The notes under the pieces were generated by a model that made no database searches, was not told where the DNA came from, and was given only the letters and a program-made list of their open reading frames with translations. Made by a program: the position numbers and the translations under genes. Positions 42,236 to 47,914 of a DNA stretch of 64,000 bases are shown here, one piece after another. Positions within the stretch are counted from its first letter, which is position 1, and each line of letters begins with the position of its first letter. The stretch lies in NCBI GenBank assembly GCA_938048455.1, contig CALIUY010000003.1, positions 181,077-245,076 of the forward strand. Reading direction: 5' to 3'. This stretch comes from an uncultured Desulfobacterales bacterium (GTDB taxonomy: Bacteria > Desulfobacterota > Desulfobacteria > Desulfobacterales > SpSt-501).

Positions 42236-42883
42236 ATGGTCGTCCCGCTGACCCCCGTCCAGGAACGCCTGCTCGATTATCTGCGCCGCCGCATCGCGGA
42301 GGAAGGGCGCACCCCCAGCCTGCGCGAGGCCGCCTCCGCGCTCGGGGTGAGCCATGCCGCGGTCGCCCGCACCCTGCGCGCGCTCGCCGCGAAGGGCTGG
42401 ATCCGGCGCGAGGGCCGCTACGGGCGCACGATCGTGCTGCTGCGCGCCGCCCCCCCCGGTGCGGGGCGCGGCCGCGAAGTTCCGGTCGTCGGCCGCATCG
42501 CGGCCGGTCTGCCCCTCTACGCCCAGCCCGAGTGGGAGGGCTGCCTCGTGGTCGACGCCGTCCTCTTCCGCGGCGAGCGGCTCTTCGCCCTGCGGGTCCG
42601 CGGGGACTCGATGCGCGGGGCGGGGATCCTGGACGGCGACTTCGTCGTCTGCGAGCCGCGCCAGTACGCCGAAAACGGCGAGATCGTGGCCGCCCTCGTC
42701 CGCGGCGAGGAAGCGACCGTGAAACGCTTCTTCCTGCGCTCCGGCCACATCGAACTGCGGCCCGAAAACCCCGCCCACCCCGTCCAACGCCACGGCTTCG
42801 GCGAGGTGCTCGTCCAGGGACGGGTGATCGGGGTCGTCCGCCCGCCCGCCGCCGTAGGCGGGCCGCGGGAGAAAACGCGGTGA
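42236..42883 (+). CDS. lexA: LexA-type SOS repressor
   Basis: Winged HTH; cleavage region VVGRIAAGLPLYA, Ser motif RVRGDSMRGAGILDGDFVV, Lys motif EEATVKRFF. Confidence 0.92.
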   Translation: MVVPLTPVQERLLDYLRRRIAEEGRTPSLREAASALGVSHAAVARTLRALAAKGWIRREGRYGRTIVLLRAAPPGAGRGREVPVVGRIAAGLPLYAQPEWEGCLVVDAVLFRGERLFALRVRGDSMRGAGILDGDFVVCEPRQYAENGEIVAALVRGEEATVKRFFLRSGHIELRPENPAHPVQRHGFGEVLVQGRVIGVVRPPAAVGGPREKTR

Positions 42884-43725
42884 GCGAAGGTTGCGAGATC
42901 CGGGTCGGCACCTGCGGCTACTCGTACCCCGAGTGGATCGAGGCGGGCTTCTATCCGCCGGGCACGCGGGCGGCGGACATGCTCCCCCTCTACGCCCGAC
43001 ACTTTTCCGTGACCGAGCTCAACTTCACCTGGTACCAGATGCCCAAGGCCCAAGCCCTGGAGCGCATGCTGCGCCTGGCCCCGCCGGGTTTCGCCTTCAC
43101 GGCCAAGCTCACGCGCACGCTCACCCACGAGGTCGATCCCGGGCAGTGGCGCGGCCAGGCGGCGCTCTTCCGCGAAGGGATCTCCCCGCTCCTCGAGCAG
43201 CGGCGTCTGCTCGCCGTTCTCCTCCAGTTCCCGGCCTCTTTCGTCCGCGCCCCGGCCTCCCGGCTCTACCTCGCGCGGCTGATCGAGGAACTCGAGGGCC
43301 TGCCGCTCGCGGTCGAGTTCCGCCACGCCTCGTGGGCCGAGGAGCGTGTCTTCCGCGAGCTCGAGCGCCGCCGCGTGACGCTCGCCGTCCTCGACGTCCC
43401 CCCGCTTCCCGGCCTGTTTCCCCCCGTCGAGGCGGTGACCCACCCCGGGCTCTTCTACGTCCGCCTCCACGGCCGAAACGCCCGCGGCTGGCGCTCGGGG
43501 AACCTCCAGCAGCAGTTCGACTACGACTACGCCGAGCCCGAACTCCGCGCCTGGGCCGAGGGGCCGATCCCGCGGCTCGCCGCGCGCGCCGCCCGCGGGG
43601 TGATCGTTTTCAACAATCATGTCCGCGCCCAGGCCGCGCGCAACGCGCTCGGCCTGCAACGGCTGCTCGCCGCCTCCGGCCTCCTCAGCGCGCCGCCGCC
43701 ATGGAACGAAGCATCATCCACCTGA
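42880..43725 (+). CDS. DUF72 (YecE-like) TIM-barrel protein
   Basis: IRVGTCGYSYPEWIEAGFYPPG; VEFRHASW; GTG start overlaps lexA stop. Confidence 0.9.
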   Translation: MSEGCEIRVGTCGYSYPEWIEAGFYPPGTRAADMLPLYARHFSVTELNFTWYQMPKAQALERMLRLAPPGFAFTAKLTRTLTHEVDPGQWRGQAALFREGISPLLEQRRLLAVLLQFPASFVRAPASRLYLARLIEELEGLPLAVEFRHASWAEERVFRELERRRVTLAVLDVPPLPGLFPPVEAVTHPGLFYVRLHGRNARGWRSGNLQQQFDYDYAEPELRAWAEGPIPRLAARAARGVIVFNNHVRAQAARNALGLQRLLAASGLLSAPPPWNEASST

Positions 43726-47800: not shown

Positions 47801-47914
47801 GCGGGGCGGGTCGAGGAAGACGGGGGGGCCCTCACCCTGACCGTCGATTCCCTGGAGCCCCTTCCGTCGCCTCTTCCCGGTGCCCGCCGGGGAAGCCGGA
47901 CTCCTCGGGCGTGA
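44879..47914 (+). CDS. dnaE2: Error-prone DNA polymerase III alpha subunit
   Basis: ATG at 44879 inside longer ORF; PHP [66 protein letters not shown]. Confidence 0.93.
   Translation: [1011 protein letters not shown]

Follow-up and report, generated by a model that had tools for sequence, protein, structure and literature searches.

What does a gene of the DUF72 family contribute to an operon whose other members are those of an SOS mutagenesis cassette? The family occurs in bacteria and archaea and includes E. coli YecE. Structures have been solved since 2004 and, to our knowledge, a function was never assigned; we know of no DUF72 protein with an experimentally established activity. The question is raised by a stretch of 64,000 nucleotides (the window) from the genome of an uncultured Desulfobacterales bacterium (3.4 Mb, 96.5% complete), in which a DUF72 gene lies between lexA and the gene for a Y-family polymerase homologue.

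The lexA-DUF72-imuB-dnaE2 operon

Analysis of open reading frames with Pfam and NCBIfam confirmed the four-gene operon described in an earlier note on this DNA, overlapping junctions included. All genes are on the forward strand: lexA (42236-42883, 215 aa), the DUF72 gene (42880-43725, 281 aa, GTG start), which encodes a TIM barrel, an imuB-like gene (43701-44882, 393 aa), which encodes an inactive Y-family protein, and a gene for a dnaE2-type DNA polymerase III alpha (44879-47914, 1011 aa). The first junction is a GTGA overlap (42880-42883) containing the GTG start of the DUF72 gene, the second an overlap of 25 bases (43701-43725) and the third an ATGA overlap (44879-44882).

LexA was identified by TIGR00498 (157.6 bits against a cut-off of 111). 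It has the LexA HTH and S24 peptidase domains, the cleavage site A90-G91 and catalytic S125 and K163, and is the sole LexA found in the genome. The DUF72 protein (PF01904, 4e-53, 181 bits against a cut-off of 25.3) is the single member of its family there. A putative recN-like gene (39237-40940) precedes lexA by about 1.3 kb in the same orientation; its translation has an ATP-binding N-terminus resembling RecN, and the gene lacks the operator described below.

The ImuB-like protein has the Y-family IMS and IMS_C domains (Pfam) and has lost the catalytic residues. Motif 1 reads HLNVADF, with the catalytic Asp replaced by N9 in 14/14 aligned sequences, and motif 2 reads DGHLFLD, the catalytic Glu of the SIDE-type motif being replaced by Gly. 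A beta-clamp-binding-type motif, QLALF (44745-44759, forward strand, residues 349-353), is present, and most relatives also have a motif of this QLxLF type. Close to the C-terminus, RLTAAIDRVRRRFGEEALRV (44796-44852, forward strand, residues 366 to about 384) resembles the N-terminus of RecA from the same genome, KALESAMSQVERQFGKGSIMKL; such a RecA-NT-like motif in Y-family proteins is described in PMC6511836. The only other Y-family protein of the genome is a DinB (8169-9371 of the window) with intact catalytic motifs (HVDMD, SIDEAFLD).

The dnaE2 product has the DnaE-type domain order PHP-PolIIIalpha-finger-HHH-OB (Pfam/NCBIfam) and keeps the catalytic aspartate motifs PDIDVDF and KIDLLG. 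Its match to the error-prone model PRK05672 is full-length, below the cut-off and scores about the same as that to the DnaE1 model. Outside the cassette, DnaE-type frames occur on contig C17 and near the ends of contigs C40 and C42; the latter two are possibly assembly contamination.

The absence of imuA, also claimed earlier, was upheld: the operon has no ORF for one and, genome-wide, the ImuA model NF033429 matches only RecA, below its cut-off (a Caulobacter control also scored under that cut-off). The ImuB C-terminal domain (ImuB-C; DUF6504, PF20114) was found nowhere in the genome, fused or standalone, with a positive Caulobacter control. What did not stand was the absence as a surprise, since imuA-less variants are published (PMC6511836) and are usual in the phylum, where related lexA-imuB-dnaE2 operons (the outgroup) lack both imuA and DUF72. 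For the same reason, DUF72 as a stand-in for ImuA is ruled out.

Conservation, putative operator and history of the cassette

GTDB contigs were scanned with an alignment of cassette DUF72s, giving 70 close and 10 distant relatives. Among the close relatives, an ImuB-like gene follows DUF72 in 67 and lexA precedes it in 64, while the full set of four, with order and strand conserved, is present in 54; the exceptions are mostly contig ends. Two of the hosts are Planctomycetota MAGs, the others being Desulfobacterales and Desulfobulbales. An even sample of 173 genomes from the class of the window yielded 61 cassette-type DUF72 genes, of which 55 lie directly upstream of an ImuB-like gene in the same orientation, in most cases within 100 bases of it. 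At genome level, 57 have both genes, 3 only DUF72, 15 only the ImuB-like gene and 98 neither (Fisher p about 1e-27, a figure inflated by shared ancestry). Most of these genomes are MAGs, and absences at contig ends were set aside where noticed. The four-gene arrangement is conserved and not due to chance, and this neighbourhood survey bears out DUF72 as a regular part of the cassette.

Rare co-occurrence of DUF72 with dnaE2 had been named in advance as evidence against a role in the mutasome. Such rarity holds for DUF72 in general, whereas the cassette subfamily is nearly always found with dnaE2. A general tie between DUF72 and dnaE2 was rejected, as outside two LexA-linked subfamilies (the second is described below) DUF72 genes are mostly located elsewhere.

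A putative LexA operator lies upstream of lexA (42102-42134, forward strand; scored core 42113-42134). It is a direct repeat, TTTACATTGACATTTACATT, of six-base units of the form TTKACA, in the order TTTACA, TTGACA, TTGACA and TTTACA, with ttgaa after the first unit and TT after the last. A position weight matrix learned from relatives scored > 14 in 62 of 76 upstream regions of cassette lexA genes, in none of the shuffled sequences and in 0/14 outgroup cassettes. A palindromic LexA box was considered and is not dominant, the signal being the direct repeat; direct-repeat LexA motifs have been reported in other groups (PMC8565304). The operator is overlapped by a promoter-like TTGACA-16-TATACT (42119-42146, forward strand), the only such site in 41900-48100 (shuffle mean 0.0). 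As the operator pattern (≤ 2 mismatches) occurs at this promoter only in the whole genome, the sole LexA of this bacterium may control a single operon. This is a candidate for a new direct-repeat LexA operator, which in this genome seems to serve the cassette alone.

Rearranged cassettes support one regulon that includes DUF72, to which LexA would bind. In one split cassette (genome G482) the lexA-DUF72 and imuB-dnaE2 halves both carry the identical 22-base operator TTTACATTGACTTTTACATTTT, and in another genome (G457) DUF72 and imuB are 2.4 kb apart and imuB has its own operator.

When DUF72 presence is placed on the ImuB tree, 11 changes are needed. Two rows scored as lacking the gene should not count as absences: in one, a contig edge leaves a DUF72 fragment, and in the other DUF72 is encoded at a different place in the genome. 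The simplest history would therefore be a single gain close to the base of the ImuB-like clade, followed by about eight losses. Those DUF72-less lineages that were inspected, from the 15 of 72 ImuB-like genomes without cassette DUF72, retain lexA-imuB-dnaE2. DUF72 is therefore not an obligatory mutasome subunit. The earlier suggestion that it may be a mutasome component is not supported as stated: besides these lineages, two further genomes keep lexA-DUF72 without the polymerase genes. A structural subunit that binds the ImuB-like protein and/or DnaE2, and has taken over a function of ImuA or of the C-terminal ImuB domain, is a reading we consider unlikely. The translational overlaps that place DUF72 between lexA and imuB are in keeping with it, as is the lack of ImuB-C in the genome; about eight independent losses are not, and the RecA-like tail would already explain how the system does without ImuA. 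Slightly more unique ImuB changes in DUF72-less lineages than in their DUF72-bearing sisters (337 versus 269 in 12 partly dependent pairs) would also agree with a subunit. Faster ImuB evolution after DUF72 loss was not accepted, however, as this is a weak tendency and DnaE2 shows the same.

Horizontal transfer bears on the same question. Between Planctomycetota and Desulfobacterota, mean identity is 50-58% for DUF72, imuB and dnaE2 and about 35% for lexA. The first three genes therefore seem to have moved together into Planctomycetota, where they are found with a different LexA. Such co-transfer with imuB and dnaE2 agrees with a subunit, as it does with the pathway partner preferred below. It speaks against DUF72 as an independent SOS-regulated repair or metabolic protein that merely uses the lexA promoter and serves another pathway, such as the handling of damaged nucleotides, because it was not with lexA that DUF72 travelled. 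In Desulfosarcina ovata a complete cassette is carried by a mobilizable plasmid, where the genes are annotated only as LexA, DUF72, hypothetical protein (the ImuB-like protein) and polymerase alpha.

Decayed forms of the cassette point the other way. The two genomes with lexA-DUF72 remnants (G448 and G452) have lost the operator, imuB and dnaE2, and their lexA appears truncated. Because lexA-DUF72 survives there without operator and polymerase genes, mutagenesis may not be the pathway in which DUF72 acts. This persistence, together with the repeated loss of DUF72, agrees with an independent protein. Pairs of imuB-like and dnaE2 genes of the same clade, without adjacent lexA, DUF72 or operator, were observed at five loci of one family (f72).

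Repeated loss also shows that DUF72 is dispensable, as would be expected of neutral baggage, its position conserved by vertical descent without function. This is highly improbable, however: DUF72 has diverged more slowly than the other three proteins (mean protein distance 0.39, against 0.50, 0.42 and 0.41), its pocket is invariant, and most lineages have kept it, as have the recipients in another phylum.

Pocket and probable role of the DUF72 protein

The predicted structure of the DUF72 protein (AlphaFold pLDDT 91) has its best PDB matches in 1ZTV and 1VPQ. The latter is TM1631, a DUF72 protein of Thermotoga, with which the fold is shared (TMq 0.81). Similarity to endonuclease IV is lower (TMq about 0.50, 6-10% identity) and equalled by other TIM barrels, and there is no Pfam match to the endonuclease IV or UV endonuclease families, the likeness being one of fold only.

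In TM1631, N44, K72, Q114, R145 and R191 were proposed by Konc et al. to bind DNA phosphate, and the aromatic pair Y47/Y48 to probe unpaired bases, a DNA-binding pocket that rests on simulation (PMC3828134). The five phosphate-pocket equivalents (N48, K76, Q116, R148 and R195) are all invariant in the cassette subfamily, as is the aromatic pair W51/Y52. The latter keeps Y48 of TM1631; the position of Y47 is always Trp in the subfamily and Trp in 0/10 other DUF72s. Q50, W53 and R54 of TM1631 are not kept. The cassette DUF72 is thus predicted to carry an intact phosphate/DNA pocket, and pocket invariance, together with the lowest divergence of the four proteins, speaks for a retained binding function, with no particular chemistry implied. 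An enzymatic role is unproven, because solved DUF72 structures lack the catalytic metals of endonuclease IV (PMC3828134).

DUF72 genes are also associated with other damage-tolerance polymerases. A second operon type, lexA-dnaE-OB-fold protein-DUF72, occurs at seven loci in other Desulfobacterales families (L169-L173, L004 and L024). It has no Y-family gene, and its DUF72 is about 30% identical to that of the cassette. A reduced form is found in two genomes of yet another family, where of dnaE only an OB-fold remnant is left, between lexA and DUF72. In a 2025 study, the neighbourhood of PolB2 mutasome operons was 'to some degree' enriched in DUF72 genes and, in bacteria, also enriched in lexA (PMC11791011). 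Elsewhere, one DUF72 gene lies beside an apparent NAD-dependent DNA ligase gene and another, on a Paraburkholderia plasmid, is close to a gene annotated as Ku.

A role of DUF72 in DNA-damage tolerance is best argued from its separate recruitment to LexA-linked polymerase operons. The same observations favour a partner in the pathway rather than a fixed subunit of an ImuB-DnaE2 complex, a subunit reading being further weakened by the operon that has no Y-family gene. An independent protein on the lexA promoter could account for the two genomes in which DUF72 follows the OB-fold remnant without a polymerase. It sits badly with the repeated association of DUF72 with different damage-tolerance polymerases, and we think it improbable.

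Our preferred explanation, held with moderate confidence, is therefore that the locus is an ImuA-less SOS mutagenesis cassette in which the DUF72 protein, induced in the SOS response, assists the translesion polymerases as a partner in handling damage. DUF72 would have been added once to such a cassette, near the origin of the ImuB-like clade. To judge by conservation of the direct repeat, the cassette's own LexA probably represses the one promoter through this operator. From what is known of the family, DNA damage and RecA filaments would lead to self-cleavage of LexA, upon which the four closely packed genes would be made together. The inactive ImuB-like protein may then scaffold DnaE2 on the beta clamp via QLALF and on RecA via the RecA-like tail, as its motifs and PMC6511836 suggest. 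The DUF72 protein would be a DNA- or nucleotide-phosphate-binding TIM-barrel protein of the same damage-tolerance pathway. Most likely, its task is to recognise, hold or process the lesion ahead of bypass or while bypass is under way, and it is not a fixed part of the polymerase complex.

More tentatively, and as a possibility rather than an expectation, DUF72 proteins may be lesion-binding or lesion-processing partners recruited independently by DnaE2 systems (with or without an ImuB-like protein) and by PolB2 systems. If true, a family that spans bacteria and archaea, YecE included, would thereby gain a function. The conserved, probably LexA-controlled and co-transferred place of DUF72 in a mutagenesis operon offers a concrete pathway and a testable role.

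Comparison with known systems

The window's operon shares with the LexA-regulated imuA-imuB-dnaE2 cassette a LexA gene, an inactive Y-family protein with a clamp motif and a DnaE2-type polymerase, all in one operon. It differs in having neither ImuA nor the ImuB C-terminal domain (DUF6504) and in having DUF72 after lexA.

Closer counterparts are the ImuA-less PolY-DnaE2 types of Timinskas and Venclovas (2019), named scDinB2-like, Kyrpidia and Cellulophaga (PMC6511836), where an inactive Y-family protein accompanies DnaE2 and RecA is suggested in place of ImuA. As in those variants, the window's system has a RecA-NT-like motif in the Y-family protein (from residue 366), a DnaE2 and no ImuA found either in the operon or elsewhere in the genome. 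As described there, the scDinB2-like type also combines an inactive Y-family protein with the lack of ImuB-C. DUF72 was not seen in the consulted passages of that account.

PolB2-iRadA-PPB2 operons (PMC11791011) are likewise damage-linked polymerase operons with lexA (in bacteria) and DUF72 enriched nearby; they differ in their B-family polymerase and RadA-like partner. Among open papers naming DUF72, this one alone links it to a mutasome. A search of the open literature, with the supplement of PMC6511836 and Erill et al. 2006 outside its scope, found no report of DUF72 with DnaE2, and YecE with DNA damage returned only unrelated E. coli papers. The window's system fits the published ImuA-less Y-family/DnaE2 kind; what appears to be new is DUF72 as a standing member, an accessory factor added to ImuA-less mutasomes.
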